A stretch of DNA of 64,000 bases from Paenibacillus silvisoli (GTDB lineage: Bacteria; Bacillota; Bacilli; Paenibacillales; Paenibacillaceae), in contig NZ_CP133017.1 of NCBI RefSeq assembly GCF_030866765.1, positions 3,330,001 through 3,394,000 of the forward strand. The letters run 5' to 3'. The first letter of the stretch is position 1. Each line of letters opens with the position of its first letter. Below the pieces are notes generated by a model that was given only the letters and a program-made list of their open reading frames with translations, ran no database searches and had not been told where the DNA came from. A program made the translations under genes and the position numbers. Of this stretch, positions 9,681 to 64,000 are shown one piece after another.

Positions 9681-9685
9681 AGGAG

Positions 9686-10759: not shown

Positions 10760-10787
10760 TAGTTGATCTTTAAGGGAGATGAGAGGC

Positions 10788-11717
10788 ATGAGCAAGGAAT
10801 CGGTTGTTAGCTTACGCAATGTTACGAAACGGATTGGACGTACGACGATCATCGACAATTTGACGTTTGACGTACCGCAAGGGGAAATTTTCGGATTTTT
10901 GGGACCGAACGGCGCGGGGAAGACGACGACGATCCGGATGATGGTCGGCTTAATGTCGATTTCGCAAGGCGAGATCGTCATTAAAGGCAAAAATATTAAG
11001 AGCGAGTTCGAGCAAGCGATCCGCCACGTCGGCGCCATTGTCGAAAATCCGGAAATGTACAAGTTTTTGAGCGGCTACCGCAACTTGATCCATTATGCTC
11101 GCATGGTACCTGGCGTAACGAAAGAGCGGATCGACGAAGTGGTGAAGCTGGTCAAGCTGGAGAACCGGATTCACGATAAGGTCAAGAAGTACTCGCTCGG
11201 CATGCGCCAGCGGCTCGGCGTTGCACAGGCCTTGCTCCACAGACCATCGCTGCTCATTTTGGACGAACCGACGAACGGGCTTGACCCGGCAGGCATTCGC
11301 GAGCTGCGCGACTACTTGCGTTATTTGACCCGGGAAGAAGGGATCACCGTGATCGTTTCCAGCCATCTCTTGTCCGAGATGGAGCTGATGTGCGACCGCG
11401 TTGCGATCCTTAAGCACGGCAAGCTTGTTGATGTGAAGCTGATCGAGGATTTCATCGGCTCGAACGATCGGACGCAGACCTATCTCATCGAGGCCTCCCC
11501 GGACGGCGAAATCATTGCGGAAATTAAGGCGATGGCCGGCGTCGCCGATGCGAAAGCCGTTCCGGAGGGACTTGAGGTCATTACCGAGCGTGATCGGATA
11601 CCGGACATTTTATCGCATTTAATGAAGCAGAACGTGAACATTTACGGTGCACGCGCCGTACGCCAATCGCTGGAAGATCGATTCTTGGAAATGACTGGGG
11701 GCGAGCAAATTGGTTAA
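10788..11717 (+). CDS. ABC transporter ATPase (BcrA/CcmA-like)
   Basis: 309-aa nucleotide-binding protein of the antibiotic and lantibiotic exporter type. Walker A GPNGAGKTT near residue 40, signature YSLGMRQRLG, Walker B LLILDEPTNGLDP, switch His in VSSHLLSEME, and a C-terminal domain typical of BcrA-like ATPases (DUF4162-like). ATG at 10788 has AAGGGAG nine bases upstream. The downstream permease overlaps its end. Confidence 0.9.
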   Translation: MSKESVVSLRNVTKRIGRTTIIDNLTFDVPQGEIFGFLGPNGAGKTTTIRMMVGLMSISQGEIVIKGKNIKSEFEQAIRHVGAIVENPEMYKFLSGYRNLIHYARMVPGVTKERIDEVVKLVKLENRIHDKVKKYSLGMRQRLGVAQALLHRPSLLILDEPTNGLDPAGIRELRDYLRYLTREEGITVIVSSHLLSEMELMCDRVAILKHGKLVDVKLIEDFIGSNDRTQTYLIEASPDGEIIAEIKAMAGVADAKAVPEGLEVITERDRIPDILSHLMKQNVNIYGARAVRQSLEDRFLEMTGGEQIG

Positions 11718-12654
11718 TTTGGTGCTTAATGAAAATATGAAACTGTACCGCCGCACGCGGACGTGGGTCATGATCGGGCTCATGATCGCCGCTGTTCTCG
11801 TCGGCAGCTTCGTGGAATGGTATTACGACGGCAAAGAGGCGAAAACAGCTACTTGGCAGCAGCAGCTGACGGAGGAGAATCAACGCCTGGATCAGCTGTT
11901 GAGCGATCCGAAGCTAGACGCGGAGAACAAGTCGTATATCGAAGGATCGAAAGCGGTCAACGAATATCGGTTGGAGCATCAGATCCGTCCCACGGATAAT
12001 ACGATGTGGGAAGGCATAAACGGTTCCGCGGAGATGGTTGTCTTGATTACGTTATTTACGGTCATCGTCGCTGGAGACAGTCTTGCCGGCGAATTCGCGA
12101 CCGGCACGATCAAGCTGCTGCTCATTCGGCCGGCAAGCCGGCTTAAAATTCTCGTGTCCAAATATATCTCGATGATTATGTTCGGATTCGCTCTGCTCAT
12201 TATATTGTTCATTGTCTCCGTGCTCGTTAACGGACTGCTCTACCAGTTCGCGAATATGGATTTGCCTTTGTTGGTTCATAACGCGGATGGAGAAATCATT
12301 CAGAAAAACATGGTCGCCAATCTGTGGCAAACGTATTTGCTCAATGGCGTATCGACGATCATCTTCGTCACGATGGCGTTCATGATCTCATCCGCGTTCC
12401 GCAGCAGCACGATGGCAATCGGCTTCTCCATCTTTGCCTTGTTCGCGGGCTCTATCCTGATGGAGCTGCTGCAGATCTACGATTGGAGCAAATATATGCT
12501 GTTTGCTAATATCAATCTGTCGCAATACTTGAGAGGCAACCCGTATCAGGAGGGAATGACGATGGGTTTCTCCATTAAGATGCTCGTTGCTTATTACCTG
12601 GTCTTCAATCTGGTATCATGGGCGGTCTTTACGAAAAGAGACGTCGCTGCTTAG
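11710..12654 (+). CDS. ABC-2 family permease (BcrB-like)
   Basis: 314 aa, TTG start overlapping the ATPase stop by eight bases. One N-terminal membrane helix, a hydrophilic extracytoplasmic stretch of about 80 residues (QQQLTEENQRLDQLLSD), then five further helices, with EFATGTIKLLLIRP in the first cytoplasmic loop, a hallmark of ABC-2 exporter permeases. It forms an exporter with the preceding ATPase. Confidence 0.87.
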   Translation: MVNLVLNENMKLYRRTRTWVMIGLMIAAVLVGSFVEWYYDGKEAKTATWQQQLTEENQRLDQLLSDPKLDAENKSYIEGSKAVNEYRLEHQIRPTDNTMWEGINGSAEMVVLITLFTVIVAGDSLAGEFATGTIKLLLIRPASRLKILVSKYISMIMFGFALLIILFIVSVLVNGLLYQFANMDLPLLVHNADGEIIQKNMVANLWQTYLLNGVSTIIFVTMAFMISSAFRSSTMAIGFSIFALFAGSILMELLQIYDWSKYMLFANINLSQYLRGNPYQEGMTMGFSIKMLVAYYLVFNLVSWAVFTKRDVAA

Positions 12655-12666
12655 GGGGAGATGAAC

Positions 12667-13200
12667 ATGCGCTTCTTCCGAATGAAAGCCGAGTCGGAAG
12701 GCAATAACGGCTTGCAGCAATTTCTGGAGCAGCATTATATCAGCTGTGGCCGGCCGGGGAGCAAGGAGGCGGAGGATTTCGTTCTGTTCGCTAGCGTGAT
12801 GCAGGATGGCGATTACATCGTCGTTACCGATGGAGACCGTATCGTATTGGGAGATCTTGGCGACTATTTTTACAATGCCGATTGCGACAATGATGAGGAT
12901 AAAAGCGGTCATCGACGCGGCGTCACCTGGCTGCGAAGCTTGGACAAGGATGAGCTGCATCCGGAGCTGATCTCATTCCTCGAACAGGAAGGGAAGATCG
13001 GCATGCTCGATCGCGAGGTGAGCAAGGAGCAGGTGGAACGCTTCTTGCGGCCCTCACCACCCGGAGAAGGCTTAATCGATGAAGCTGCCATTTCCGAAGC
13101 GATCCGCATTCTGAAAACGGCGATGAGAAGCGAAGATGCCGAGCGCAGAGAACGTGCCGCGATAGCCATATTACAGGCAGCTCAATGGTTCAGAAAATAA
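12667..13200 (+). CDS. Hypothetical soluble protein
   Basis: 177 aa, soluble, acidic. I do not recognise a named family with confidence. The central part (YIVVTDGDRIVLGDLGDYFY, then HRRGVTWLRSLDKDELHPEL) resembles the small N-terminal beta-rich domain seen in front of some Mrr/McrB-type restriction proteins, but no nuclease or NTPase motif follows. ATG at 12667 fits the AGGGGGAG site better than the ATG at 12661. It may be the last gene of the ABC operon, because only six bases separate the permease stop from the first ATG, and a terminator follows. Confidence 0.55.
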   Translation: MRFFRMKAESEGNNGLQQFLEQHYISCGRPGSKEAEDFVLFASVMQDGDYIVVTDGDRIVLGDLGDYFYNADCDNDEDKSGHRRGVTWLRSLDKDELHPELISFLEQEGKIGMLDREVSKEQVERFLRPSPPGEGLIDEAAISEAIRILKTAMRSEDAERRERAAIAILQAAQWFRK

Positions 13201-19311: not shown

Positions 19312-19487
19312 TGCAGGAAAAGGGAGCATACGGGCGCATACTCCACCATATTTTCGTGACGCCCGCCGATATGGTAGAGGTCATGGTTGCGATTCAAGAA
19401 GGCAAGTCGCCTGAAGATGCCGCCAAGGAATGGGTGGACAGCCATGAGGAGCTGGTCAAGACATGGATTACGGCGACCAAATCTTAA
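19312..19487 (+). pseudogene. 3' remnant of a glycine betaine-type ABC binding protein
   Basis: About 57 codons remain, ending in VMVAIQEGKSPEDAAKEW and VKTWITATKS, the kind of C-terminal helix pair found in quaternary-amine binding proteins (OpuAC type). No start codon or ribosome site precedes it, and the rest of the gene and its transporter partners are absent. It lies next to a GbsR-type regulator, which fits loss of an osmoprotectant importer. Family assignment rests on a short segment. Confidence 0.5.
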
Positions 19488-19495
19488 CGTAGGTA

Positions 19496-19525
19496 AGGAT
19501 CGTCCGCATTTGCGGGCGATTTTTT
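19496..19525 (+). terminator. Rho-independent terminator
   Basis: ATCGTCCGC / GCGGGCGAT stem with ATTT loop and a T6 tract. It survives downstream of the binding-protein remnant. Confidence 0.8.
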
Positions 19526-19639
19526 ATTTTTACTAATGTGATAAAGTTCACAACATTTGAAGCGCAAATCACGCATACTGGAATTGCGGTAGGGAATACC
19601 GATTCAAACGAGTTCAATTCCCGAAGGGAGATGACCGTT

Positions 19640-20125
19640 ATGGTCATGCAATGGTACAGACAACACAAATGGGCGGCGCTGCTGGTTACGCTAATACGGG
19701 TTTATATCGGATGGCAATGGCTGGACGCAGGCATTCGCAAGCTTACGAATGGCTTCGATGCAACAGGGTTCTTGAAAGGGGCCGTTGCGAAGCCCGTCAT
19801 CGATCATGCGACGGAAGAAGCCGTGTACCCGAACTATATTTATTTCCTCAACCATTTCGCTATACCGAACGCGAAGCTGATCAATGTGCTGATCCCGTTA
19901 GGCGAATTCCTCATCGGCGTCGGGTTGATCGTCGGCGGACTGACGCTTGCCGCGGCCTTCTTCGGCATGATGCTGAACTTCATGTTCCTCTTCGCCGGCA
20001 CGGTAAGCACGAACCCCTGGCTGCTGCTGCTCGCCATGCTTGTCTTCGCGGCAGGAGCTAACGCCGGGAAATTTGGGCTGGACTACTACTTGGTCCCGCT
20101 GATCCGTAAAGGCTGGAAACGATAA
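19640..20125 (+). CDS. DoxX-family membrane protein
   Basis: 161 aa, four membrane segments, DoxX/DoxD-like: LIRVYIGWQWLDAGIRKL near the start is the family signature. ATG at 19640 is chosen because AAGGGAG lies eight bases upstream; longer readings have no ribosome site. Function in bacteria is poorly defined (thiosulfate:quinone oxidoreductase-like or redox-stress membrane complexes). Confidence 0.82.
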   Translation: MVMQWYRQHKWAALLVTLIRVYIGWQWLDAGIRKLTNGFDATGFLKGAVAKPVIDHATEEAVYPNYIYFLNHFAIPNAKLINVLIPLGEFLIGVGLIVGGLTLAAAFFGMMLNFMFLFAGTVSTNPWLLLLAMLVFAAGANAGKFGLDYYLVPLIRKGWKR

Positions 20126-20179
20126 TGTCACCCGGACGCCTTCAGTCATACGATATGACAAAGGAAGGTGATCACCATC

Positions 20180-20332
20180 ATGCGCGTAACCATTACGCTT
20201 GCATGCACGGAATGCGGCGACCGAAATTACATGACGACCAAGAACAAGAAAAACAATCCGCAGCGTCTGGAGCTTCGTAAATATTGCCCGTCCCATAGAA
20301 AAGTAACGCTTCATCGAGAAACGAGATCCTAA
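20180..20332 (+). CDS. rpmG: 50S ribosomal protein L33
   Basis: 50 aa, begins [20 protein letters not shown] and ends TLHRETRS, clearly L33. The first zinc knuckle CTEC is intact; the second is CPSH rather than CxxC, so zinc would have to be held by three Cys and one His, or not at all. Bacilli often carry zinc-binding and zinc-free L33 paralogs, so this could be an intermediate form. AAGGAAGGTG precedes the ATG. Confidence 0.93.
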
Positions 20333-20344
20333 TTTCTCATATGA

Positions 20345-20374
20345 AAAGGCCGCGAGAATCGCGGTCTTTTTGCT
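20345..20374. terminator. Terminator between rpmG and the ger operon
   Basis: AAGGCCGCGA / TCGCGGTCTT hairpin followed by TTTTTG between two convergent transcription units. Confidence 0.75.
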
Positions 20375-20379
20375 GTCGG

Positions 20380-21465
20380 CTAATGCGCATGCCGTTTCTT
20401 TAGCCTAGTTAACACCACGATCAGAATGTTAATGGTAACGGCCGGAATGATCACCGTAAACGGCAATATTTTGAGATCATAATCGACTAAGTCCGTAAAG
20501 TGAAAATAACTGTTCATGGAGAGGGCAAGAAGGATGCCGCCCATCGGTATGATGAAAGACTGCGTATTCGTTATCGAGAAGAGCTTGCCTATGACTTTGA
20601 TTAACGCATATTGAACGATAATGATTTCGAATAACGTAAATATCGTCCAAATCCCGATTATGATGATTTCCATTCGTTCGAGATACTCGCCGAATTTGAC
20701 CAATTGAATGGCGGAGAAGAACGGGAATGACGAGGCGGCGAATAGATTCATGCCCAGCGACCCCATTGCTAGATAGGTCGATGTAAGCAGGTACGCGCAC
20801 GACAAAACGACTCCGACGCTGCAGCTTAGAAAGATCTTCTTCTTATTCGTCACCTCGGAGAACAGGAGAAAAATGACGCCCATTTTCCCGAACGGAAACC
20901 CGAAGGAGATCATGGCTCCGTAATAGATTTGCTGAACCGGCTTTTGAAAAAGAGGAAGAAACGGATTTATGTCCACATTGCGAAAGCTCAGGATGCAGAT
21001 CACCGCGATTAAGATCAAAAACATCGGCAGAATGACGAGCACGGAGCGTACGATCGTTCCGAGACCCAGCGAAACGGCATAAGTAGTCACTACTAGGATC
21101 AAGAACATGATCAGAGTAGGAGACGTTTTCGGAAGAATAGCCGTTATATAGAAGAACGAAAGAGATCGGAGGGAGAGTACGCCCAATCCAAGCAAGCTAA
21201 CGACGTAGATGCCGTAAATGAATTTGGAAATCCACTTCCCGAATAGCAGTTCGATAATGTCGAGCATGTTTTTATCGCCGAATTTATTTTGTACGTAAGC
21301 GATCATATACACGATGATGATAATGACCGTCACCGCGGAAATGTTGGCCATCCACGCATCCTGCTTCAACATTTGGGCTTCCAGCAAATATAAAGTCGAA
21401 AATCCCGACATGAACGTGAAACTTAAGGCGCCAAGCTGGAAGGGGGATATTTTATCTAAATTCAC
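20380..21465 (-). CDS. Spore germination permease, GerAB type (ger locus 1)
   Basis: 361-aa polytopic protein (about ten helices) of the spore germination branch of the APC superfamily; GerAB-type proteins sit in the spore inner membrane and bind nutrient germinants. Start motif ISPFQLGALSFTFMSG is characteristic. GTG start overlaps the stop of the small upstream gene by four bases (GTGA), with GGAGGATC upstream. Last gene of an A-C-D-B operon. Confidence 0.9.
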   Translation of the reverse strand: MNLDKISPFQLGALSFTFMSGFSTLYLLEAQMLKQDAWMANISAVTVIIIIVYMIAYVQNKFGDKNMLDIIELLFGKWISKFIYGIYVVSLLGLGVLSLRSLSFFYITAILPKTSPTLIMFLILVVTTYAVSLGLGTIVRSVLVILPMFLILIAVICILSFRNVDINPFLPLFQKPVQQIYYGAMISFGFPFGKMGVIFLLFSEVTNKKKIFLSCSVGVVLSCAYLLTSTYLAMGSLGMNLFAASSFPFFSAIQLVKFGEYLERMEIIIIGIWTIFTLFEIIIVQYALIKVIGKLFSITNTQSFIIPMGGILLALSMNSYFHFTDLVDYDLKILPFTVIIPAVTINILIVVLTRLKKRHAH

Positions 21466-39183: not shown

Positions 39184-40266
39184 TTATGCTTCTTTCGGAC
39201 GGTCGATCGCTTCGGCCATCGTCTTGTCGGTCAAATGCGCATAGATTTGCGTCGTCTCCGGCGAAGCGTGGCCGAGCTGCTCCTGCGTCTTATACAAGTC
39301 GTTGCGTAAGTAGTAATCCGTTGCGAAGGAATGGCGCAGCTTATGCACGGACAGATAAGGCTTGCCGAACCGCTTCGCATATTTGATCACCATCTCTTGG
39401 ATCGCGCGCTTCGTCATGCGGGCGCCTTCCTTCTTGCCGTTCGCAATGGCGAGGAAGAGCGCTTTTTCCCGCTTCGGCGCTTTGTATTGCGAATCCCGCT
39501 GCGACATATAGAGCTGCAAATCACGCAGCGCCTCTTGCCGGAAATAGACCGGCGTCTTGAATGTATCGTCGTTCTTCCCTTTGCGATACACATAGAGCAG
39601 CCGCTTCTTCAGATCGATATCCTCGACATTCATATTGAACAATTCCGAAACCCGCAGACCGGAGTTCAGAATAAGACTGACAATCGATGTGTCGCGCGTG
39701 CGGTTATTCGTATAGGCATACAGCGCCTGCTTATTGTTCGCAATTTCCGTGCCATAATCCTCGTTAATGTACCGGATAAATTCGTCGATCTCCTGCTCCT
39801 GCAGCAGCTTGCCTTCCAGCTTCGCCGCCGTATCCTTCGGCTTTGCGGTCCGCTTGATCGACACCTTCGCCATGACGTTGCGCTTCAGAAGCGGGTAGAA
39901 ATTCTCGTCCTCCGCGATTTGGCTCAAATAATGGAACAACGAGCGGAGCGAAGAGAGCTTGCGGGAAATGGTCGTACGGCTGTTGGATGACTCCGGCCGA
40001 GTAGCCAGAAACATTTTAAAATGATCGATGCTGTCCATATGAAGCTTCTCCAGCTCCTCCAGCGTCACGTCTCGGATCGTCGGACCGGCCGCGAGACCTT
40101 CCGCCAGCAGCCAGGATAAGAACGCATCGTAATCCCGGACATATTCAAGCAAAGAAGACGGGGAGAGATCGGGCAGCTTAAAATTGATGAATTTCTCGAT
40201 ATACCAAGGCATGGTCGGCGTACGCCGGTCGAGCTCCTGCCGATCCCTGATTTTAATAATATTCAA
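39184..40266 (-). CDS. xerS: Tyrosine recombinase XerS
   Basis: 360 aa. SAM-like core-binding N-domain starting with the XerS hallmark TMPWYIEKFINFKL, then the catalytic domain with Arg in LNSGLRVSELF, HKLRHSFATDYY (H-x2-R), and GHASPETTQIYAHLTD preceding the tyrosine (IYAH Tyr). The XerS group resolves chromosome dimers with a single recombinase in some Firmicutes; many Paenibacillaceae also carry XerC/D or CodV/RipX, so its exact role here is open. It lies 25 kb from the RTP gene. A LexA-like box lies 63 bases upstream. Confidence 0.9.
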   Translation of the reverse strand: MNIIKIRDRQELDRRTPTMPWYIEKFINFKLPDLSPSSLLEYVRDYDAFLSWLLAEGLAAGPTIRDVTLEELEKLHMDSIDHFKMFLATRPESSNSRTTISRKLSSLRSLFHYLSQIAEDENFYPLLKRNVMAKVSIKRTAKPKDTAAKLEGKLLQEQEIDEFIRYINEDYGTEIANNKQALYAYTNNRTRDTSIVSLILNSGLRVSELFNMNVEDIDLKKRLLYVYRKGKNDDTFKTPVYFRQEALRDLQLYMSQRDSQYKAPKREKALFLAIANGKKEGARMTKRAIQEMVIKYAKRFGKPYLSVHKLRHSFATDYYLRNDLYKTQEQLGHASPETTQIYAHLTDKTMAEAIDRPKEA

Positions 40267-53169: not shown

Positions 53170-53600
53170 GAACCTACAATCAAAATCAAAATTGATCTGA
53201 GATTGAAAATCCAAAACAAAGCTGACGGATCATAAAGTCTAAAAATCAAAAGTCTTGATCTGAATATTGAAATCCAACAAGCTGACGAATCAATCCAGCT
53301 GATGATTAGCTGACAAAGATTGAAAATCCAAACAAAGACTTAGATAAAAAAATCATAACTAAAAGCTGCTGCGCAAAATCTTGATCTGAGATTGAAAATC
53401 AATCGATCAAAAAAAGCGAATCTGCAAAAAAAGCTGACGAATTTCGACGATGATTAGCTGACAAAGATTGAAAATCCAAACAAAGACTTAGATAAAAAAA
53501 TCATAACTAAAAGCTGCTGCGCAAAATCTTGATCTGAGATTGAAAATCAATCGATCAAAAAAAGCGAATCTGCAAAAAAAGCTGACGAATTTCGAACATT
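53170..53600. repeat. A-rich repeat field with an exact 148-bp tandem duplication
   Basis: Non-coding on both strands and far richer in A/T than the flanks. Copies at 53301-53448 and 53449-53595 are identical over 147 bases. Inside and upstream, shorter motifs recur: TTGATCTGAGATTGAAAATC (at about 53191, 53380 and 53528, with a variant at 53253), GCTGACGA(A/G)T(C/T) and AAAAATC, so the field looks like repeated duplication of a ~60-bp ancestor. No hairpin-forming unit or regular spacer is seen, so it is not a CRISPR array. Function unknown. Confidence 0.85.
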
Positions 53601-53740
53601 TTCACAAAACCCGTATTTTATACATATGTCTTTATGTAGAATGAAAGTCCCGCTTCTTCAGTTAAAATTTAACTGTCGGATGTCCAATGACACAAATTCA
53701 TCCTCAATGATGACTCAACGCTACCCCCTTTAATTTTTTT

Positions 53741-53779
53741 GACACAATAATCCCGCATTGATTGCGGGATTATTGTGTC
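53741..53779. other. Perfect 17-bp hairpin in intergenic DNA
   Basis: Arms GACACAATAATCCCGCA and its exact complement around TTGAT. A T7 run precedes it on the plus strand (53734-53740), so neither strand has the usual hairpin-then-T order. It may be an operator, a folded RNA element, or a relic of a mobile element end. Confidence 0.6.
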
Positions 53780-53928
53780 ATCATCACTGACCCCATAGTT
53801 ATGAGCTACTGTTCGCAACTGTGGTTAAGAATACTTTTCAAACAATGTTCCGTTCCTCCGGTGGACGGATTTCCATATTTACCTTAAGTCTGAGTGAACT
53901 TCATTCTTTCGAAGATTTCCAATCGTTT

Positions 53929-53981
53929 GTTTAAAACTCGATCCAGAAAAGCATAATAAAGGAAATCTCAGCGCGCGCTGA
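53929..53981 (+). promoter_or_regulatory. Possible sigma-G promoter and palindrome of ger locus 4
   Basis: GTTTA, 18 bases, CATAATA (53952-53958; full match to the forespore -10). Ten bases on, the perfect palindrome TCAGCGCGCGCTGA (53968-53981) occupies the expected 5' untranslated region just before the ribosome site AGGGGTGA. Confidence 0.5.
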
Positions 53982-53995
53982 TTCAGGGGTGAACG

Positions 53996-55420
53996 ATGAC
54001 AACAATCTCTTTAGAAGCTTTAAAGCAACGCCTCGCCCTAATTGAGGACGCGGAGATAATTGATCGAGAGACTACCGACGGACTTCGTTTGACATTTATT
54101 TATCTTGGAACCTTAATCGATCAGGAGCGTCTTAACGAATCGATTCTTGTGCCTCTCGTTCGATCATTCCAAAGCTCGGTGGAAAAAAGCCTGACCACCG
54201 CCAAAATTACACGTTTATCCAATTTGGAGCAAGCCCTCCAGTATCTCATGAAGGGCTCAGTGCTAGTTCACGACTCATCCAGCGGGCGATGGCAAGCTAT
54301 TATGCTCCCCAACTCGCTCAGCCGGTCCATCGAAACCTCAGAGACGGAAACAATAATGTTCGGCCCAAAAGACAGTTTCAGCGAGCAGCTGGAGCAAAAC
54401 ATCTTGCTGATTAGAAGAAGGCTTCCTTTAACAGCGCTCAAAACAGAGAGATACTCCGTCGGCTCCTTAACCCAAACAACCGTAGTCCTTATGTACATCG
54501 ACGGGCTAATCAATCCAGAATTTGTAGCGGTCGCGAAAAATAAGCTTTCCAGCATCGACTTCGATATGTTCTTGGACTCTTCACATGTTGCAGCGTTTAT
54601 GGAAGACCATTATCACAGCATCTTTCCTCAATATCTTCAGACCGATCGACCGGATTCCTGCGCGTATTCACTAGGCATCGGAAAATTGGTCATTTTCGTC
54701 AATAACACTCCTTTCGCCTTAGTCGCTCCGATTACGCTGTTTCACTTGTTTCAGTCGCCGGAGGATTATATAAACCGCTGGTTGGTAGCTAGCTTTTTGA
54801 GGCCGTTACGCTATCTCAGTTTCCTTCTTTCCATTACTCTAATTCCAATTTACGTGGCATTAACGACTCATCATTATCAAATGCTTCCCCTGCAAATTTT
54901 ATATGTAATCATCGAGTCTCGTAGCAAACTGCCGCTATCCCCCTTCTGGGAAGCGTTTATTATTCTTATTACGCTAGAAATTATCAAGGAAGCCAGCCTA
55001 AGAATGCCGACCAAAACGAGCCAAAACTTGGGGGTAATTGGAGGAATCGTTATAGGACAAGCTGCGGTAGAAGCCGGATTTGCAAGCAAAGTGCTAATCG
55101 TATTGGCAGGCATTTCGGCGATTTCCACTTTTCTCGTTCCAAACTATCTGGTCACCAAATCCAGTTTACTACTTCAATTCATATTCTTGATTCTCGCGAC
55201 CTATTTAGGCATTCCCGGTATCTTGCTTGGACTCGTCGGCATGTTTGCCCATCTGAACGGGCTTACGTCCTTGAACCAGCCCTACTTGGCGCCGGTATCT
55301 CCGTTTTATTGGAGAGATTGGGTCGATCTTTTCGTCCGAGGGCCGTTACACGCTATGCGCATTCGTCCTGAAGCATTGCGTCCTTTGAACAAGTATCGTA
55401 TTAGCCGAAGGAGTAAATGA
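53996..55420 (+). CDS. Spore germination receptor A subunit, GerAA type (ger locus 4)
   Basis: 474 aa. More divergent than the other three paralogs: the usual RGPRxGF motif reads FGPKDSFSEQLEQNILLIRR, and the membrane segment reads VALTTHHYQMLPLQILYVII and GVIGGIVIGQAAVEAGF. About five C-terminal helices. Codon use is more AT-rich than loci 1-3. ATG start. The B-subunit gene follows after four bases. Confidence 0.9.
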   Translation: MTTISLEALKQRLALIEDAEIIDRETTDGLRLTFIYLGTLIDQERLNESILVPLVRSFQSSVEKSLTTAKITRLSNLEQALQYLMKGSVLVHDSSSGRWQAIMLPNSLSRSIETSETETIMFGPKDSFSEQLEQNILLIRRRLPLTALKTERYSVGSLTQTTVVLMYIDGLINPEFVAVAKNKLSSIDFDMFLDSSHVAAFMEDHYHSIFPQYLQTDRPDSCAYSLGIGKLVIFVNNTPFALVAPITLFHLFQSPEDYINRWLVASFLRPLRYLSFLLSITLIPIYVALTTHHYQMLPLQILYVIIESRSKLPLSPFWEAFIILITLEIIKEASLRMPTKTSQNLGVIGGIVIGQAAVEAGFASKVLIVLAGISAISTFLVPNYLVTKSSLLLQFIFLILATYLGIPGILLGLVGMFAHLNGLTSLNQPYLAPVSPFYWRDWVDLFVRGPLHAMRIRPEALRPLNKYRISRRSK

Positions 55421-55424
55421 ACCC

Positions 55425-56546
55425 ATGCAAGCTATATCGCTGTTTCGAAAAACCTCACATCAAGAAAGCGGTTTTTACGCGCTCTTCCTCACCAATAGGA
55501 TTCAAATGCTTTATTACATGATTGTCATGCCCTCAGCCCTTGTTCAACCGTATATGTTGTTGGCGATTGTAGCAATGGGCATAGCCTCCCAATTTTGCTT
55601 ATATATGCTGTCCAAGTGGTTCGCAACACCCTACGCCGCCCAAGGGTACCAGGGTTTTGAAAAATTATTCGGAAAAAGAGGCATCAAAATTTTAGCTTTG
55701 GCAAGCTTGCCTCTCCTTTTGCTTAAGATCTCTTTCATTTCAATCAGTTATGCCGAAATCATGCAGCAATTTGTTTTTCCCTCTATGGATCGAGAATGGC
55801 ACATTGTGTTTCCTTTTATCCTTAGCTGCTATTTGGCGCTGTTTGGAATGGAAAACATGGTACGGTTCGTAACGATCGTGTTCATTGGAACGATATGGAT
55901 CTTCTTTTTGTATACTCCGTATTTTTTGGTGCAATCAAATTCGATTCACGATCTATACCCTCTCATCCCCATTGGCCCAGAGCCGTTTGCATGGAAATCC
56001 CTACTGCTCGTTTTTTCGTCGTTTTCCGGACCAGAATTTTTAATCGCTATTTCATATTGGCTGAATCCTCAACGGAAAATGCTCAAATATTTGACGATAG
56101 CTAACGCCATCTCGGTCGGCGAGTATCTCTTTATTTCCATTGCGTCCTTGCTCTTCTACGGCTCCAAATACTTGCCAACCATCAAATACCCGAACGTGGA
56201 GATGGGGCGCTACCTGCAATCTCCTGTATTCGAACGGGTCGATATTATCCTGATCTCGGCATATTCGTTCAGCTTCCTTTACTCAATCGCCTTGTTCGTG
56301 TTAATGATATATGGCGCATCTCGTTTGCTAGGCAAGACGAAAACAAACACTACGCTTATTGGGCTGATCGTTAGCGGCTGTGCGGCGATGGCCGTCACTC
56401 TTCCGATCAGTAAATGGTTTTGGGAGCCCGGGCTCGAACAGTCCTTTTGGCTCGACCTACAGATGTGGGCAGGATCCGCCACTTATTTGTTAGTGCCACT
56501 TCTCGTCTGGATCGCAATCAAGCGCAAAGCCAGGACAACGTCATGA
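55425..56546 (+). CDS. Spore germination permease, GerAB type (ger locus 4)
   Basis: 373 aa, about ten helices, GerAB/APC fold but without the ITxxQLGxFxF opening of loci 1-3 (here HQESGFYALFLTNRIQMLYY). The ATG has AAGGAG upstream. It lies between the A and C genes, giving the order A-B-C as in the B. subtilis gerA operon, unlike the A-C-B order of the other loci here. Confidence 0.88.
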   Translation: MQAISLFRKTSHQESGFYALFLTNRIQMLYYMIVMPSALVQPYMLLAIVAMGIASQFCLYMLSKWFATPYAAQGYQGFEKLFGKRGIKILALASLPLLLLKISFISISYAEIMQQFVFPSMDREWHIVFPFILSCYLALFGMENMVRFVTIVFIGTIWIFFLYTPYFLVQSNSIHDLYPLIPIGPEPFAWKSLLLVFSSFSGPEFLIAISYWLNPQRKMLKYLTIANAISVGEYLFISIASLLFYGSKYLPTIKYPNVEMGRYLQSPVFERVDIILISAYSFSFLYSIALFVLMIYGASRLLGKTKTNTTLIGLIVSGCAAMAVTLPISKWFWEPGLEQSFWLDLQMWAGSATYLLVPLLVWIAIKRKARTTS

Positions 56547-57634
56547 AGCGCTTCGTACGAGCAACGCTTGTGCTGCTTTCATTTTCTTTGTTGACATTCG
56601 CATGCAGCTGCGTCCCCATACCGGAAAACAATATAATCGAAGAAATCACGCCGATCATTTTCTGGTCCGTACAGGGTGGAGGAGAAGAAGACGGAAAGAT
56701 AACAATCAGCACGCTCGTCCCTCCTCTTATCAAGGTGAAGAAGCGAGTCCTTTCCCTTAAGGTCTCTCTATTGAATGAAGGCAATAAGGGGTTTAATTTG
56801 ACCTATTATAACGAATTGAAAGCCGGTCAAATCCGCTTGCTGTTCGTGGACGAAGCTTATGCGAAACGGGGACTGACTCGTCTTATCAATACCGTTCTGA
56901 CCGATCCGAACATTTCGCAACGGCTGTACTTAGTCATTACGAAAGGCAACTTTAATCAATTCCTCGCCAAGCACTTGGGTGAAACAGATAATATCGATTA
57001 TTACCTTTATCGCATGTTCAAACATTATGAGAAGAAAAAACAAGGCGAAATTACTGTCGTCAATTTGCACCAGTTTATGAAAATGCTGTACTCCCAAGTT
57101 TCCGATCCCCAGCTACCCGTATTTCGCGCGGAAGGCGAACAGTTCTTGTACGAAGGCACAGCATTTTTTGACCGGGACAGTATGGTTGCGGAGATACGTG
57201 GAAAGGACGATCAAATAAACCAATTGTTGTATAGGGACAGATTCGTACGATATTTAGTCCTTCCTGACCTCGCGGTTACGCTAGGGCATATTCGCGCGCA
57301 TACTCATAAGAAACTGACCCCGGATTTATCATCCATGTCCATTGAAATCGACGTGAAGGGTAGAATTGACGAATTGGATTCGCTCGCAAGAATCGAGGAT
57401 AACTTCCAATTTGCCGCTCTCACACAAAAAATCGAACGGTACTTGGAGGAGAATGTCATCCGCTTGCTATCCCAAATGCAAAAATTGCAGATCGACCCCC
57501 TTCAAATCGGGGGGTTGACTGCTAAACCGTTCTCCAAACCAATAACCAGAGATACATGGGATCGGCATTGGTCTACAATGAAGATTAATGTAAAAGTGCG
57601 GCTACATTTAGAGCCTCTGACGAAGGTGAAATAG
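56543..57634 (+). CDS. Spore germination lipoprotein, GerAC type (ger locus 4)
   Basis: 363 aa. The ATG at 56543 overlaps the gerAB-type stop (ATGA); signal peptide with lipobox LLTFAC (Cys near residue 21). The mature chain lacks the WDRxEIND start of loci 2 and 3, and the C-terminal GerAC domain ends RDTWDRHWSTMKINVKVRL. It belongs to a divergent GerAC branch, matching the divergence of its A and B partners. Confidence 0.86.
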   Translation: MKRFVRATLVLLSFSLLTFACSCVPIPENNIIEEITPIIFWSVQGGGEEDGKITISTLVPPLIKVKKRVLSLKVSLLNEGNKGFNLTYYNELKAGQIRLLFVDEAYAKRGLTRLINTVLTDPNISQRLYLVITKGNFNQFLAKHLGETDNIDYYLYRMFKHYEKKKQGEITVVNLHQFMKMLYSQVSDPQLPVFRAEGEQFLYEGTAFFDRDSMVAEIRGKDDQINQLLYRDRFVRYLVLPDLAVTLGHIRAHTHKKLTPDLSSMSIEIDVKGRIDELDSLARIEDNFQFAALTQKIERYLEENVIRLLSQMQKLQIDPLQIGGLTAKPFSKPITRDTWDRHWSTMKINVKVRLHLEPLTKVK

Positions 57635-57706
57635 GAAGATGGTATCTTGTTCAAAGACTGTTGCTGTCTTATTGAATTCAGAGGGAGATCACAATAGTTT
57701 CAAATT

Positions 57707-57832
57707 CTAATCCCATTTGAGGAATGACGAGTAGATGGGTAAAATCACTTCAACAAAGGTTCCTTCGTTGACCGTGCTTTCGATGCGAATACTCCCTCCG
57801 TGTTCGTGGACAATCTTGTTGCTGACCATTAG
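57707..57832 (-). pseudogene. 3' stump of a sporulation-type sensor histidine kinase
   Basis: Reading leftward, the last ~41 codons encode the end of an HATPase_c domain (LMVSNKIVHEHGGSIRIES, then EGTFVEVILPI) with a normal C-terminus. The match begins abruptly at 57832: the preceding GLG motif, the rest of the ATPase domain and the dimerisation domain are absent, and the DNA turns AT-rich. The KIV-EHGG-I pattern resembles KinA/KinE-type kinases. The junction is the best candidate for the left boundary of the Tn7-like element. Confidence 0.75.
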
Positions 57833-57859
57833 AATAATTGATATAATTTCCAATTATTC
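57832..57859. repeat. Inverted repeat at the kinase-stump junction
   Basis: GAATAATTG (57832-57840) and its complement CAATTATTC (57851-57859) around a ten-base AT loop, followed by CTTTTTG. It sits exactly at the point where kinase homology ends; it may be part of the transposon end, or the terminator of the leftward PIN/tns operon. Confidence 0.55.
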
Positions 57860-57892
57860 CTTTTTGATTCATGTACTTACAAATGTCAAAAG

Positions 57893-58924
57893 TTATGTAT
57901 CTAACATATCCCATTCATCACCAAGTACCCAACGTAATGCAGAAAGCTTGCCGTTAATCATTCCCCACTCAAAATCATCCCAAGGTCCTAGGTGTTCTAA
58001 GCCCATTCGTTCTTCGACTCTTGCCGCCGCCCTAAGTGCACCCTCCCATACATTACGTTGAATTGGTCGAGTAGCATGATCTTTTATGGGAAAGGTCTCC
58101 TTCTCGACAATTTCAGTAATACCTTCTTCAATCTTTTCTCGAAGCACCTGATGACGGTTATACCAAACCTTTGTAACAAGCTCATCAATAGCTTCGATGA
58201 TCTCCGTCAGCCTTCTCGGTTCCTCAGCCCAATTATGTTCAATCATTATGTCATCAAAATGTTCTGGTTCGATGTGCTGAAGCGCTTCACTAAGAGTAAT
58301 AAAATAATACGATTTTGTTAGTGAAAAACACAATTCAATATCAGGGTGAGGTAATTTTTTACTCGCATTTGGGTGGCTAAAATCATTAGTGTTATGCGAG
58401 ATAAAGGCAAACCGATTATCAGATGATTCGTCTTCTCTAATAACATCCGTGTAAACCTCAAAAAGAATCGCATCGTCTATTCCATTGCGTTGTCTGTGAA
58501 AGGGAGCGAGTTTGTCGATAGCTCTTTGCGCTGCCCGGAGCTTCACAGAATCTGAAATTTCATTAATTGTAGATCTTTCAAATAATTTTTCAATCCGGTC
58601 AATTGTTTCTACTGCAGCCTCTCCCAACATAGGAAGACGATGATCAACATCATTAAGCTGTGTAATTACACTGTTTTTTTGTTGTGGATCGCCGAACTTT
58701 TCCACAACTTCTTAAACACGTTTAAAAGTACTGGACAGACTACGAGTGCTCTGCTCTATAACACGATCTTTATTTCGAGCAAATTCTTCAACTACAACTC
58801 TTGGAAGAATTAATTCAATATGCCTCTGATCAATTAGGTCTTCTAGAGCAGTCAGAATCGTCTGTTGATGGTAATCCTTCGCGAGATCAAGCCAAACGCA
58901 AGTATCAATAAGAATTCTATACAA
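57893..58924 (-). pseudogene. PIN-domain nuclease (DUF4935-like), interrupted by an in-frame TAA
   Basis: One frame of about 343 codons broken by a TAA at 58712-58714. Before the stop: RILIDTCVWLDLA with the first catalytic Asp and PRVVVEEFARNK with the Glu. After it: NGIDDAILFEVY and SHNTNDFS, the remaining acidic residues of a PIN active site, then a ~170-residue helical C-terminal region. PIN enzymes cut RNA; ones this size are often toxins or phage-defence effectors. The two pieces stay in frame (73 codons apart), so a single substitution explains the break. It is the only cargo next to the tns genes. Confidence 0.75.
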
Positions 58925-58969
58925 AAACCATCAGTCCTTTCAAAATTTTGAAATATAGAAGGAGGCAAT

Positions 58970-60421
58970 TTAGAACGGGCATACCAAATCGGGTTTGTGT
59001 TGCCGATGGTCCTTAAGCCACCAATGGAACTCTAGTTCCTTTTCATTGTCACGAGGTAGTTTGATCAGAAAAAACGGAACGTTTTCGTAACGAAATGGAA
59101 CATTTTCAAATTCCAAACCAAGTGATTCCGTATTCTTACCGATTTCTAACCAGCTGTAAAAATGATTGAGAGCAAAATGAGAAAGTACTCTGTTGATAAT
59201 CCAAATTGTTGCTGTGAGATGTTTATACCTCCAATAGGGCTTGCCGTATTCCCATTTGGTAAGAATGTCCCATAATGCAGAGTCATCTTGTTTAGACATG
59301 AACTCCATTTCATATTTGCTTCGTTCTCTTGAAGGCCGATATTTATTGTCTACCTGTCGCGTATGTGTATGTCCTTCAATAATTTTTTTCCAATTTACAT
59401 ATGCAAAAGCATAAGGGCATTTGGTATCAAACAGTTCTAACTTTCTAACACACGTGATATGATCCCGAAGAATTGTAGCTCTCAAGTGTTTAGCAATCGC
59501 GTAGAATGTGCTTCTATTGCTCTGATAAATGAGTTCGTTTATTTTTTCAATAAATCCGAGGTATCTCTCGTCGCTGCCGGACTCTCGAATGGATTCGAAT
59601 TCTTTATAATAATTTCCATAAATCATGATTTTTGACGGCGACTTAATCACATAATGTTTTTCAGGTTGAATTGATTTATAACTTGGATCGACTGCCTGCA
59701 AAATAAAATTCATACCACCTTGTAAATTACGGAACGAAATTTCACTAGACAAAATGAGATCATTAAAATTGATCTTTTGTTTATAGTACATGGATATCCA
59801 ATTCGTCACTTCGGTTGATTTGATTACGGGTTTGGATTCCCATAACTCTGAATAATTACAAGTACCGCTTAAATATTGATGACCACAGGAACATTGAAAC
59901 GGTGCAGTTAAGGCGTCATCACCGAGACGATACGGATAAGATTTATCGCATATCGGACAGCGGTCCGACAACGGTTCTCCATGGATAGGACATTCATGGA
60001 TTAACGAGAATTGGTTTAATATGCTGTGAAAGCCGTTCTTCATGCACGCTAAGCAGAATGTCAGCTGTTTGCGAAAAAAATCTTGATAAGGACGATGTCT
60101 CGGAACAAATGTCATCAGGTTCATAAACTCTTGATTCCTAGCTTTTACGTCTAATTTCAAGATGTTTGTAATACTTTCATTGTTCAATCGGGGCATATCA
60201 ATTAGATTGCAATTCTGTTGACTGTAACTTATGGATCTTCTACTTAATACTTCCTCGTTACCGAATTGGAACAGAATATCTTTCGCCGTAACGCAATTTG
60301 CGTACTTAAATTTTTCGAAAATTCCCCAAGGTGATTCGTAATCTGAGATCCAGTCCGGATTCCAAGTGAATTGCCTCTGTATTTCTTTATACTCAGGAAA
60401 TACACATTTAAGTTTTCTCAT
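58970..60421 (-). CDS. tnsD: TniQ-family target selector (TnsD-like)
   Basis: 483 aa. N-terminal TniQ domain, recognisable by three zinc-ligand clusters: CLACMKNGFHSILNQF and HECPIHG, DRCPICDKSY, and FQCSCGHQYLSGTC (about residues 125-215). The C-terminal half (about 230-483) is basic and helical and should bind the target DNA. In Tn7, TnsD picks a fixed chromosomal site and recruits TnsC. The start overlaps tnsC by four bases (ATGA). A TniQ from a CRISPR-associated system would be shorter, and no cas genes are visible. Confidence 0.85.
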   Translation of the reverse strand: MRKLKCVFPEYKEIQRQFTWNPDWISDYESPWGIFEKFKYANCVTAKDILFQFGNEEVLSRRSISYSQQNCNLIDMPRLNNESITNILKLDVKARNQEFMNLMTFVPRHRPYQDFFRKQLTFCLACMKNGFHSILNQFSLIHECPIHGEPLSDRCPICDKSYPYRLGDDALTAPFQCSCGHQYLSGTCNYSELWESKPVIKSTEVTNWISMYYKQKINFNDLILSSEISFRNLQGGMNFILQAVDPSYKSIQPEKHYVIKSPSKIMIYGNYYKEFESIRESGSDERYLGFIEKINELIYQSNRSTFYAIAKHLRATILRDHITCVRKLELFDTKCPYAFAYVNWKKIIEGHTHTRQVDNKYRPSRERSKYEMEFMSKQDDSALWDILTKWEYGKPYWRYKHLTATIWIINRVLSHFALNHFYSWLEIGKNTESLGLEFENVPFRYENVPFFLIKLPRDNEKELEFHWWLKDHRQHKPDLVCPF

Positions 60422-61428
60422 ACCACTTCGTGGTATGTCTCGGCTTCAATGTAACCAGAGCTAGTTATCGAGGATTTCCATTGCTCATTGTTCAGCCAGT
60501 GAAGATCCTCCCCATTTGCTCCAAAATGACGCAGTGCATTTTCAACTGTAAGCGTTAAATATTGCATTGGTATTTCGGTTGCTCTTGTAAGTCCGTGTTC
60601 CTTGCGAAGATTCGTAAATATGCTAAATAGATCCTTTGCACAATTCTCAAGACGACATCCATGATGATCAAACCCTTCTGGAAAAAAGTAACGGGTAAAG
60701 GACCATCCGCTCTCTTCGGGATATTCTGAAATATTGTCGTAACCGGACAAACAAACTGCCATATCATCGGCGTCAACTATTCCTTTAAAATTGTATTCGT
60801 GAACCATAAATCTTCCGATTATCTGAGCTTTCTTGGCTTGAATAAATGCGCTGCGTTGATGAACAAGTTCCTCCTGTCCAACCAAGATAACTGTCATGCT
60901 AATGCCGGCACTATCAAGTTCGTTGTAAATATCCATCAACCAGCCATATTGAATTTCAAAAAGACGTTGAGCGTCATCGATGAACAAAATAATTCGTTTT
61001 TGAGCTGAGCGTTCAGCCTTTTCTACAAAGTATCGATAGAGTCGGTCTCTCTTTAAATTGGCTTTTCCGTTAAAGGGCAAAGCGTGCCCCACATCATTCA
61101 ATAGATCTTCAAAGAAGCTACTCTCACTCGGTTGTTTGTATTGTCGACATTTCATAGTAAATATAGGGAGATGTGTACCGAATTCATTCGGAAGTTCGTA
61201 TGTAAGATACGTAATGGCTCTTGATTTTCCGAGTCTCGGTCTGCCATAAATCATCCCGCCGGGTGAACGATTTGTGATCCATTGGGCAACGGTATCATAC
61301 ATACGAATAATTTCGTTCGTCGGCAGCAGGTATCTTCCGGTCTCAATGGGATGAGTACCTCGAGCCACATAAGGTCTTGGCGGTGACAAGGCAGAACTTT
61401 TTTCGATGGGACTAGGTTGATTTACCAT
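60418..61428 (-). CDS. tnsC: TnsC-type AAA+ ATPase
   Basis: 336 aa, AAA+ regulator. Walker A GRPRLGKSRA near residue 61, Walker B RIILFIDDAQRLF near 142, sensor region MTVILVGQEEL near 175. TnsC polymerises on target DNA and links the target selector to the TnsAB transposase, and it prevents insertion close to the element itself. It lies 13 bases after tnsB in the operon, with GGAGGGAG before its ATG. Confidence 0.9.
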   Translation of the reverse strand: MVNQPSPIEKSSALSPPRPYVARGTHPIETGRYLLPTNEIIRMYDTVAQWITNRSPGGMIYGRPRLGKSRAITYLTYELPNEFGTHLPIFTMKCRQYKQPSESSFFEDLLNDVGHALPFNGKANLKRDRLYRYFVEKAERSAQKRIILFIDDAQRLFEIQYGWLMDIYNELDSAGISMTVILVGQEELVHQRSAFIQAKKAQIIGRFMVHEYNFKGIVDADDMAVCLSGYDNISEYPEESGWSFTRYFFPEGFDHHGCRLENCAKDLFSIFTNLRKEHGLTRATEIPMQYLTLTVENALRHFGANGEDLHWLNNEQWKSSITSSGYIEAETYHEVV

Positions 61429-61441
61429 GGCTCTCCCTCCG

Positions 61442-63406
61442 TTAATAAGTAATTGTCCTAAACCGTTTTCGATCTATATTCATACTCTTTTTAGTGGAAG
61501 CTTCAATTAATGGAACAACATTTTCGCTCTGAGTATCATCAGGAAGAACCTCTTTGGAGTCCGCTTTCTCTTTCTCCTTTTTTTTACTTCGTTGAAGTGC
61601 AGCTAACCGATTACGATCCGATCGACTCGTTTTAGCCTGTTCTTGTAAATATCTGTGATAACATTCAATCGGATCATCATAATTGGTGAAATGCAGTATT
61701 TTCAAATTTCTTAATTTGTTTATCTGTTTTCTAACTTGAAGTGAATGCGGCGTAATACCCCATTTTCCATTGGCCGAAAGTACGCCAAACTCACTGCCAT
61801 CAGGCAAAAATGCTCTAATTACTCGGAGATCGTCGATATTCACCAGTAGATCTAATTGGGTGCCAATAAGTTCAGGACTTCGTGATAATACTTCGTTACG
61901 ATATTCAGTCCCCTCGTAATAAATAAAAGGGCGCTTTCCTTGGCTAATGTTTCCTTGAACAACTCGGTTTGCGGCGAGAGAAAGAAAAGCGATTTCCTGT
62001 CTTTTTTCCTCAGTCATAACTCGTGGAAGCAAACCTCTGTTTAAACGCTGTTCTAAACATTGCAGCGGTGTCAAAAGATTTATTCCTTCATGTTTCGTTC
62101 CGTTGTAGTTGGATATGAGTACATCTGTCAGTTCTTCTATGTGCTCAGCGGTAATCCGATATTTCACTGCTTTTTTCTCCGGATCCTGTCGTCGTGGATC
62201 TCTAGGGTTGCTGCCGGTTGTGTTTACTAGACGATGGAACCCATTTTCTTCTAACGTTTCGAAAAATCTTTCAATTATTCCTCTTCTCATTGGCAATGCC
62301 ACAGGACCAGCATTAACCGAGCAGCCTATAGTTCGTTTAAGTCGGTCTCTGACTTGATTCGCTAAATTAGATTTACCATTATCCAGATGAAACTCATCCC
62401 ACAAAGCCCATTCCATTTCAGGAAACAGCCTTGATGCAAAACCGCCATTCGGATGATAAGTTAATCCTGGGATCGTTAATTGAAGCACTTCTTTGGGAAT
62501 GACAGCTTTTTTAATGCAATGCAGTACATCGCTAGCGGAATACTCCTTATTAAAGCTAAGATGGTGACCCAAGATGAGTCTTGTTGCAACATCAATTATG
62601 CAGAGTAACCAGAGCCGATCCATTACCTCCACAATCTCATCGCCTTCTGGCGTGTGAAACACGATAGCAATTGAACAGTCTATTCGATGTCCATCAAATT
62701 GAACACGTTCTAAAGGTCTAATTGATAATGGAGCATTCGGTGCGCCTATTCCTGTATGTCTTGCTTTTTGACTTGCATTCTCACCGTAGCGTTTAGCGGC
62801 TTCACCAAAGTGCCGTTGTTCAAGACTCTCAACATAACGATATAACGACCGTTTACCTAAATCACCACTAATAAATGGATATTCACTGGTTGTAATACCT
62901 GCCTTGGTGCAGGCTTCCAAGAGTTTAACATGAAGATCTTTCACACTAATAATAGGTGATCGTACTTCTCGTTTTTTATTTCTACCCAAATATAAATTGT
63001 CAATCGTATCTTTAACGGCAGGGTACTGCTTTAACAGCAATGTAAAAGCGCCCGTCATATTGGATAAATCGTCTTGCTTTGATAATATAGGCAGAGACTT
63101 GCGTTCATATTGTTTTAATCGTTTCCGGGGAATAAGTGCTCTATAACCCCAGATTCTACCTTGGTCATCGTAAGATAGGCATCTCTTCACAAATGCCAAT
63201 ATATCTTTCCTGTCAATGAGTGTAACGGCGCTAATTTCATGGAGTGGGCGCTCATTCTTCATATACATGTCGATGGCCTTTTTTCTCGCAATAAAAGTCT
63301 CTTTGTCATTAGAATCCAATTTATCTTCATGAACAATCGGCCAGATTGATGTATCTAAATGTGCCGGATCAATTTTCTCATTCTCAATCCATCTTTTTTT
63401 AGGCAT
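61442..63406 (-). CDS. tnsB: TnsB-type DDE transposase
   Basis: 654 aa, retroviral-integrase fold. Catalytic residues read as D238 (ERVQFDGHRID), D342 (EFHLDNGKS) and E379 (RRGIIERFFETL), with the DVATRLILG strand between. An N-terminal region of about 200 residues should hold the end-binding domains, and the Lys-rich C-terminus (KKKEKEKADSK) precedes a tail that would contact TnsC. TnsB cuts and joins the 3' ends of the element. The start overlaps the tnsA stop by eight bases. Confidence 0.92.
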   Translation of the reverse strand: MPKKRWIENEKIDPAHLDTSIWPIVHEDKLDSNDKETFIARKKAIDMYMKNERPLHEISAVTLIDRKDILAFVKRCLSYDDQGRIWGYRALIPRKRLKQYERKSLPILSKQDDLSNMTGAFTLLLKQYPAVKDTIDNLYLGRNKKREVRSPIISVKDLHVKLLEACTKAGITTSEYPFISGDLGKRSLYRYVESLEQRHFGEAAKRYGENASQKARHTGIGAPNAPLSIRPLERVQFDGHRIDCSIAIVFHTPEGDEIVEVMDRLWLLCIIDVATRLILGHHLSFNKEYSASDVLHCIKKAVIPKEVLQLTIPGLTYHPNGGFASRLFPEMEWALWDEFHLDNGKSNLANQVRDRLKRTIGCSVNAGPVALPMRRGIIERFFETLEENGFHRLVNTTGSNPRDPRRQDPEKKAVKYRITAEHIEELTDVLISNYNGTKHEGINLLTPLQCLEQRLNRGLLPRVMTEEKRQEIAFLSLAANRVVQGNISQGKRPFIYYEGTEYRNEVLSRSPELIGTQLDLLVNIDDLRVIRAFLPDGSEFGVLSANGKWGITPHSLQVRKQINKLRNLKILHFTNYDDPIECYHRYLQEQAKTSRSDRNRLAALQRSKKKEKEKADSKEVLPDDTQSENVVPLIEASTKKSMNIDRKRFRTITY

Positions 63407-64000
63407 TGCTCCACACCTCTGTTTTTGAATCTAGTGGTTTGTGAGTGATTGTAGAGTCCATCATTCCCCGATAAATCAGCTGATACAAAGTCTCCCGTAT
63501 CCGTTGACGACCAAGAACCGGAAGCGCTTGTTCTATTTCTTCTATCGTGGTTTTGGAGGTCCTGCCAAGAACTTTCATGATTTGATATTGGACCGTTTCC
63601 ACAAGAACAGGGCGTTGTTGAATGTAAGGGATAATCGTTTTCAAATTATTCAAATAAATCAAGTTGGATCGGATGTCTTTATCAGTTCGAATGAGATGAT
63701 TATACCCATTTTCTTGGCACCATTTTGCTTGAGCATTCGTTTGTTTATAAGATCTTGATGAAAATCTTTTGTCGTTAGGGTCAAGTTCAGAAGCATATTT
63801 CACTTCCAAGAAGCACTCCGTTCCGTTCATTCGCTGAATCCACATGTCAAAAATGGATTCTACTAATTCTCCTTCCATTCTACTTGTATTCGCATGGGTT
63901 GTTCACAGAAGGCAACAATGTCCAAATCAGCTTCAACGAGAATCCAATGATCGTATTCCAGATCGCTAAAAAACCGCACATCGCGGTTCATTTTGTTGCT
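63399..64000 (-). pseudogene. tnsA: TnsA-type endonuclease, frame broken; 5' end outside window
   Basis: TnsA cuts the 5' ends so that the element leaves its donor site. From the window edge the frame reads RDVRFFSDLEYDHWILVEAD and FCEQPMRIQVEW, the N-terminal half of the nuclease with the catalytic Glu, then hits TAG at 63863-63865. From 63878 the -1 frame continues GELVESIFDMWIQ and ECFLEVKYASEL with the catalytic Asp and Lys, and runs to the C-terminal winged-helix part. One G missing from a run near 63875 explains the split. An internal ATG at 63878 would give a 159-aa product lacking the Glu. Confidence 0.8.

Follow-up and report, generated by a model that had tools for sequence, protein, structure and literature searches.

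The 64,000-nucleotide stretch of the Paenibacillus silvisoli chromosome considered here (contig NZ_CP133017.1, positions 3,330,001 to 3,394,000; hereafter the window) ends in a leftward cluster of transposition genes, which raises the question of what element these genes belong to, where it begins and ends, and what brought it to this place. The source genome (G000) is a single 6,734,763-bp chromosome, and coordinates above 64000 are window-equivalents. We find that the genes belong to a Tn7-like transposon with TnsA, TnsB, TnsC and one TniQ/TnsD-like target selector. Its lineage is mostly from Bacillota and, judging from sequence comparison, very probably attaches at dif, the site at the replication terminus where chromosome dimers are resolved and which is important for segregation. 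The target is well supported, and the manner in which it is recognized is something we infer.

Both ends of the element were located through comparison with the closest relative (G012); a search within the window for the right-end repeat did not locate the left end. The element runs from 53681 to 64268, 268 bases beyond the window, and is thus 10,588 bp long. Its left end is TGTCCAATGACACAAA, its right end is the exact 16-base inverse, of the TGT...ACA type, and each end carries three TnsB-like sites that include an inverted pair. A preliminary description of the window had proposed a Tn7-like transposon with its right end just past 64000 and had predicted TnsB-site repeats, TGT...ACA ends and a 5-bp target duplication. 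Extension to the right placed the end as expected, the predicted signatures were all present on search, and together with the tns operon, which encodes TnsA, TnsB, TnsC and TniQ/TnsD, they bear out the assignment. The description had also put the start of the element near 57832, at a sharp change in base composition at about 57.8 kb; the left end instead lies beyond a ger operon, so that the interval noted covers 58% of the element, and the sharpest shift is at about 53.0 kb, where GC content goes from 0.55 to 0.32.

This left end also bears on the first proposal that the element is compact, with a PIN-domain gene as its sole cargo. The PIN gene does lie 45 bases downstream of tniQ on the same strand, as described, and G012 likewise has a PIN gene of this family as cargo, but the frame in the window is not intact, one PIN_12 gene being split by a TAA codon. 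Because the ger operon lies inside a left end that has a matching duplication, gerAA, gerAB and gerAC are the main cargo, and we give a very small element carrying PIN alone practically no chance of being correct. The interrupted PIN frame likewise leaves the suggested defence or addiction role, as a working RNase function of the window copy, unsupported.

The attachment site had been expected at the right, tnsA end; the conserved site instead flanks the left, tniQ/cargo end. A motif 50 bp from the left end of the window element is also present in the left flank of the G012 element, and comparison of 53 loci revealed a conserved core of about 35 bp with variable flanks. The motif occurs with at most 3 mismatches in 22/22 genus genomes and 188/197 family genomes, is found in two copies in only two family genomes and is single-copy in the source genome. 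In all nine genus genomes (of 22) having no more than three contigs, it lies 0.477-0.53 of the chromosome from dnaA: 0.502 in G000, 0.506 in G001, 0.487 in G012, 0.52 in G021, 0.523 in G017, 0.477 in G013, 0.486 in G002, 0.53 in G009 and 0.483 in G008 contig 1, taking the best-scoring dnaA and with several genome sizes rounded. GC skew switches at the motif, from +0.056 over the 53.6 kb to its left to -0.093 over the 45.7 kb to its right. The motif has inverted arms about a 6-bp centre (ACAAAA-CCCGTA-TTTTGT in G form), and the left arm, TTTCACAAAA, closely resembles the one that the available part of PMC5357621 reports for difSL, TTTCCGAAAA. XerS scores above the curated cut-off in 13/13 genomes with dif-linked elements versus 1/14 control genomes, and 6 of 77 motif loci have an xerS gene in the same direction as the motif and 34-76 bp upstream of it, an arrangement described for xerS and difSL in that part of PMC5357621. 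We conclude that the motif is the predicted dif site of the family, of the XerS/difSL type, because it is single-copy, lies opposite dnaA at a skew switch, has difSL-like arms, and is accompanied by XerS in the genome and in some cases by a nearby xerS.

Classical dif was found in 0/22 genus genomes within 3 mismatches, a point in favor of the motif being some other single-copy, terminus-linked site targeted by transposons, such as one for replication arrest or terminus organization. Nevertheless, this reading is improbable, since the related elements of XerCD hosts keep the same distance from classical dif, and since both the difSL-like arms (PMC5357621, available part) and the xerS genes 34-76 bp away speak against it. 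If the motif is dif, left-end spacing offers a practical way of annotating dif in Paenibacillus relatives.

Some further features of these sites were noted. Sequences like the XerD arm of classical dif were seen by eye at window 53076, about 500 bp from the motif, and beside the motif in G001, and a stretch of about 150 bp is tandemly doubled directly left of dif (window 53300-53595). The loci with xerS 34-76 bp upstream of dif are L139 (xerS at 19401-20471), L093, L096, L098, L099 and L162. Those of L139 and L162 have intact catalytic residues and differ from host XerS of the usual kind, being 42% identical to that of the window; they may belong to a second dif system or be the integrase of another element.

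The relation of the transposons to dif was then compared across genomes. Of 14 TnsB-bearing family genomes, 13 have a TnsB no more than 25 kb from dif, on the opposite strand in 13/13. Among the named TnsB loci, which are the best 80 of 174, 30 contain dif (24 XerS-type, 6 classical); in 25 of these 30 the distance from dif to the start of the left end that follows it (TGT-N5-GACA or close) is 33-56 bp, and 28 share one strand relation to dif. A pattern of dif, a 30-58 bp gap and a left end was present in 60/394 family genomes, compared with 1/394 for a control gap 100 bp longer (130-158), and that one genome also has the normal pattern. The six classical-dif relatives come from B. pumilus, Aneurinibacillus, a Bacillus, Fictibacillus, Brevibacillus and Virgibacillus, and dif with a left end was found at classical dif in 14/398 class genomes. 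Matching ends with an exact 5-bp duplication were identified in six elements, those of the window, G012, P. algorifonticola, P. profundus, Virgibacillus (at classical dif) and G070, against a null of 6 in 5911 random TGT starts. We show by these sequence comparisons the boundaries of the element, its 5-bp duplication, and its narrow spacing and single orientation to what appear to be dif sites of both the XerS and the XerCD type. The counts exclude G140, where pieces of a broken tnsB lie near a motif with 6 mismatches. A 7-mismatch classical dif match at L198 was dropped, shuffles having given 1 match at that threshold over 50 loci.

The terminus often accumulates mobile DNA, and the window element is itself nested in an older one, as would fit a terminus that merely tolerates insertions so that elements pile up without targeting. 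Such an explanation is very unlikely given the 33-56 bp spacing in 25/30 dif loci, the one orientation in 28/30 and the contrast of 60/394 with 1/394 once the gap is shifted. It can also be asked if the element entered by Xer recombination with the tns genes as passengers, since IMEX elements that use dif and Xer are known (PMC5357621, in the part available) and likewise have dif as their chromosomal entry point. IMEX elements, however, recombine at dif via host Xer, whereas the dif-linked Tn7-like elements transpose beside dif with their own transposase; dif is single-copy and so does not flank the window element on both sides, and the element has TGT...ACA ends and a 5-bp duplication 50 bp off dif. 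We therefore regard an IMEX-like origin as next to impossible.

Targeting of dif by the Tn7-like lineage has to be weighed against several observations that point the other way. Fifty of the 80 named TnsB loci have no dif in the DNA examined; some of these loci end early, and some may be true off-dif copies. Six TnsB copies within the family are off dif (the second copy of the source genome, G008 contig 2, two on G011 contigs 4 and 27, G020 contig 10, and G053), as are copies outside it in G092, G107 and G139; no dif was found near the operon in these three or in G053. Two of the 30 dif loci depart from the common orientation, L156 with a reversed left end and L162 with no left end. The scan for duplications covered 41 loci and gave pairs in just 5, with the G012 element once more among them; the other 36 gave none. 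For the position opposite dnaA, both G017 and G008 have a second DnaA above the cut-off, and the best-scoring one was taken. Finally, the window element has no XerS-like gene, so that TniQ would have to act there alone or with host XerS. Relatives with TGTCGG ends gave no clean duplication pair; right-end-like stretches, two in G141 and one in G016, were left uncounted.

The nesting was detected in the comparison with an empty site in relatives that the preliminary description had recommended. When the flanks of the window element are joined with one TCGGA, they are identical over 55 bp to the intact left end of the element in G020, which argues that the window element went into an older dif-linked element, 7 bp within that element's left end. 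A right end of the older type is found at window-equivalent 89917 without a matching duplication, and because of this we treat the outer element as a remnant. What is left of it, at window-equivalent 64269-89917, contains genes that look arsenic-related by eye. The source genome has only two known TnsB copies. The other belongs to a diverged tnsA-tnsB-tnsC set (39-44% identical) off dif at about 4.88 Mb (L006, 11523-15167), in which no tniQ was found and insertion-sequence-like transposase frames, seen by eye, occupy the expected place of tniQ.

A quick tree of 73 TnsB rows places every one of the 25 XerS-dif rows inside one group of 35 (support 90), and the four classical-dif rows long enough for inclusion lie apart from it. 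That one lineage is found at both sequence forms of dif argues that dif itself or Xer-bound dif would be what is recognized. In the mechanism we propose, TniQ would recruit TnsC and TnsAB to dif, either reading dif DNA by its C-terminal part or sensing Xer-occupied dif, and the insertion would land beside dif and leave it undestroyed. Residues 279-436 of the window TniQ gave no match above background, and we claim no DNA-binding fold for them. Because dif is single-copy and important for segregation, it would serve as a safe harbour, one where elements could stack.

A sister lineage of elements suggests a further component. In G011, G020, G026, G032, G044 and G141 the tns genes are accompanied, on the tnsA side, by an XerS-like gene, and G032 has an additional one between the left end and tniQ. 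The element-linked proteins (343-368 amino acids) keep the catalytic tyrosine in 7/7 copies, and they lack both the HxxR histidine and the H/W after it in 7/7, the lysine in 6/7 and the first arginine in 4/7; the 13 other aligned XerS rows keep R-K-H-R-H-Y (the host XerS of G020, with one TAG in the assembly, was outside the alignment). A degenerate copy is found 1.0-3.5 kb upstream of tnsB in 12 of the 80 named TnsB loci, some from the same genomes, and 3 of the 12 have no dif in the DNA examined. In an XerS tree, 16 of 19 element-linked rows (12 different sequences) form one clade apart from host XerS (100/97); the three others are G011t, its duplicate L175 and G032t2, and the program gave long-branch warnings for G032t, G032t2 and G011t. 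The degenerate XerS paralogue thus probably supplies dif binding in the sister-lineage elements.

A broader reading, on which we find the balance even, is that these transposons are Bacillota-wide 'dif hunters' that would read the dif/Xer complex and not a fixed sequence, which would be why one transposase lineage is found at both XerS-type and XerCD-type dif. One branch would have captured and inactivated an XerS paralogue as a dif-binding selector, a second, independent case of a dead tyrosine recombinase in this role, and the terminus would be a stacking dock from which germinant receptors, arsenic genes and defence-like genes move between spore formers.

Several known systems offer comparisons. 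The available part of PMC11406308 names glmS, tRNA, parE, guaC, yciA, ffs and rsmJ as Tn7-like attachment sites, and that of PMC10293859 adds comM. The window element resembles Tn7 and single-TniQ Tn7-like elements in its TnsA, TnsB, TnsC and TniQ, TGT...ACA ends, several TnsB sites and 5-bp duplication, and in a fixed distance and orientation to a conserved site; their sites, in these sources, are genes, whereas that of the window element is dif and flanks the tniQ/cargo end. The Tn5053 family, or res site hunters, is alike in using one TniQ to guide insertions to a recombination site, here the resolution (res) sites (PMC11406308, same part). Unlike the window element, which has a tnsA (frameshifted), the Tn5053 family lacks TnsA, targets res of the Tn3 family and has its own resolvase for cointegrates. 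TnsF of Tn6022 is an inactive tyrosine recombinase that targets comM, according to the part of PMC10293859 available. The sister lineage likewise has a degenerate tyrosine recombinase with its tns genes (7/7 copies), but its XerS paralogue is without the N-terminal zinc fingers of TnsF, its target is dif and not comM, and its selector role is putative; the window element has no such recombinase. The open-licence PMC literature searched gave no account of a Tn7-like element inserting at dif, which points to dif as a landing site so far undescribed there for the family. Non-coding and single-copy, dif occurs in most circular chromosomes; as an attachment site it would add a new class of safe harbour and might be used as a landing pad by integration tools. 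It would also link transposon targeting to dimer resolution and poses a testable question, namely if TniQ reads dif DNA or Xer on dif.

Features of the window element and its surroundings. Coordinates are window positions; those above 64000 are window-equivalents.
Feature	Position	Strand	Basis or remark
Host xerS, outside element, 13 kb from motif	39184..40266	-	NF003462 381 bits, cut-off 267
dif-like attachment site (XerS/difSL type), outside element	53596..53630	+	Conservation, position opposite dnaA
Target duplication TCGGA	left copy 53676..53680; right copy 64269-64273 (outside window)		Perfect 5 bp
Tn7-like transposon	53681..64000, on to 64268	-	Identical 16-bp inverted ends, duplication TCGGA
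Left end with three TnsB-like sites, two as an inverted pair	53681..53780	+	TGACACAA/TTGTGTCA at 53688, 53740, 53773
gerAA-like germinant receptor subunit (cargo)	53996..55420	+	Pfam GerA 4.7e-140
gerAB-like spore permease (cargo)	55425..56546	+	Pfam Spore_permease 2.3e-20
gerAC-like subunit (cargo)	56414..57634	+	Pfam Spore_GerAC_N and Spore_GerAC
Histidine-kinase-like C-terminal remnant	57640..57826	-	Translation read by eye
PIN_12 gene, split by in-frame TAA at 58712-58714	57893..58924	-	Intact in G012
tniQ/tnsD-like target selector	58970..60421	-	TniQ model and match to solved structure
tnsC-like AAA ATPase	60418..61428	-	Pfam AAA_22 9.1e-14
tnsB transposase	61442..63406	-	Profile match to solved TnsB 3e-9
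tnsA, frameshifted near 63872-63875	63402..64000, on to 64063	-	Open reading frame 63399-63878 plus N-terminal part in another frame

The leftward tnsA-tnsB-tnsC-tniQ operon, with overlaps or short gaps, was confirmed from open reading frames and from family and structure matches. The window TnsA scores just below the Pfam cut-off and is supported by a match to a solved structure; TnsA of G012 is above the cut-off (Pfam 2e-7), with a PDB match of 7e-4. Window TnsB as a single sequence had no Pfam or NCBIfam match, and its structure match was obtained with a profile built from 18 relatives. TnsC is assigned from AAA_22 together with a TniB match below the cut-off, and a PDB sequence search with it gave no match. 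The relatives L161, L163, L171, L191, L192 and L194 have two TniQ-like genes, with no dif in the locus DNA examined. Because tnsA is frameshifted, the window copy is probably immobile, and with the in-frame stop in the PIN gene it looks inactive, though it could perhaps be mobilized with help in trans.

The stump of an unrelated kinase gene that had been described is a C-terminal remnant, seen by eye in translation. In the ger operon, the first GerAC domain begins at residue 87, and the true start of gerAC is probably closer to 56540. A PADLOC search with the PIN gene gave no match; its unbroken homologue in G012 has 343 amino acids. The sister element of G012 (10,672 bp, with its own 5-bp duplication) and that of P. 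algorifonticola (10,157 bp) are 95-96% identical to the window copy in TnsB and 91-95% in TniQ, and their cargo is different. G012 carries an ABC-type ATPase (UvrA-like by eye), a serine-hydrolase-like gene (by eye), the intact PIN gene and a GNAT acetyltransferase, and P. algorifonticola an OLD-like nuclease plus other genes.

We found no report of germinant receptors in Tn7-like elements in the open-licence PMC literature searched, and the available part of a cargo survey (PMC8649781) has 0 occurrences of germination genes. A dif-linked element in B. pumilus (L151) nevertheless has its own gerABC operon (9275-12995) and a serine resolvase (8321-8869). A germinant-receptor operon as cargo in two distant hosts suggests a way in which horizontal transfer could change how spores germinate. 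The A subunits of the window and B. pumilus operons are 28% identical, so the two look like separate captures. Set beside the B. pumilus element, that of B. zhangzhouensis has a nearly identical TnsB and, by eye, arsenic-type cargo.

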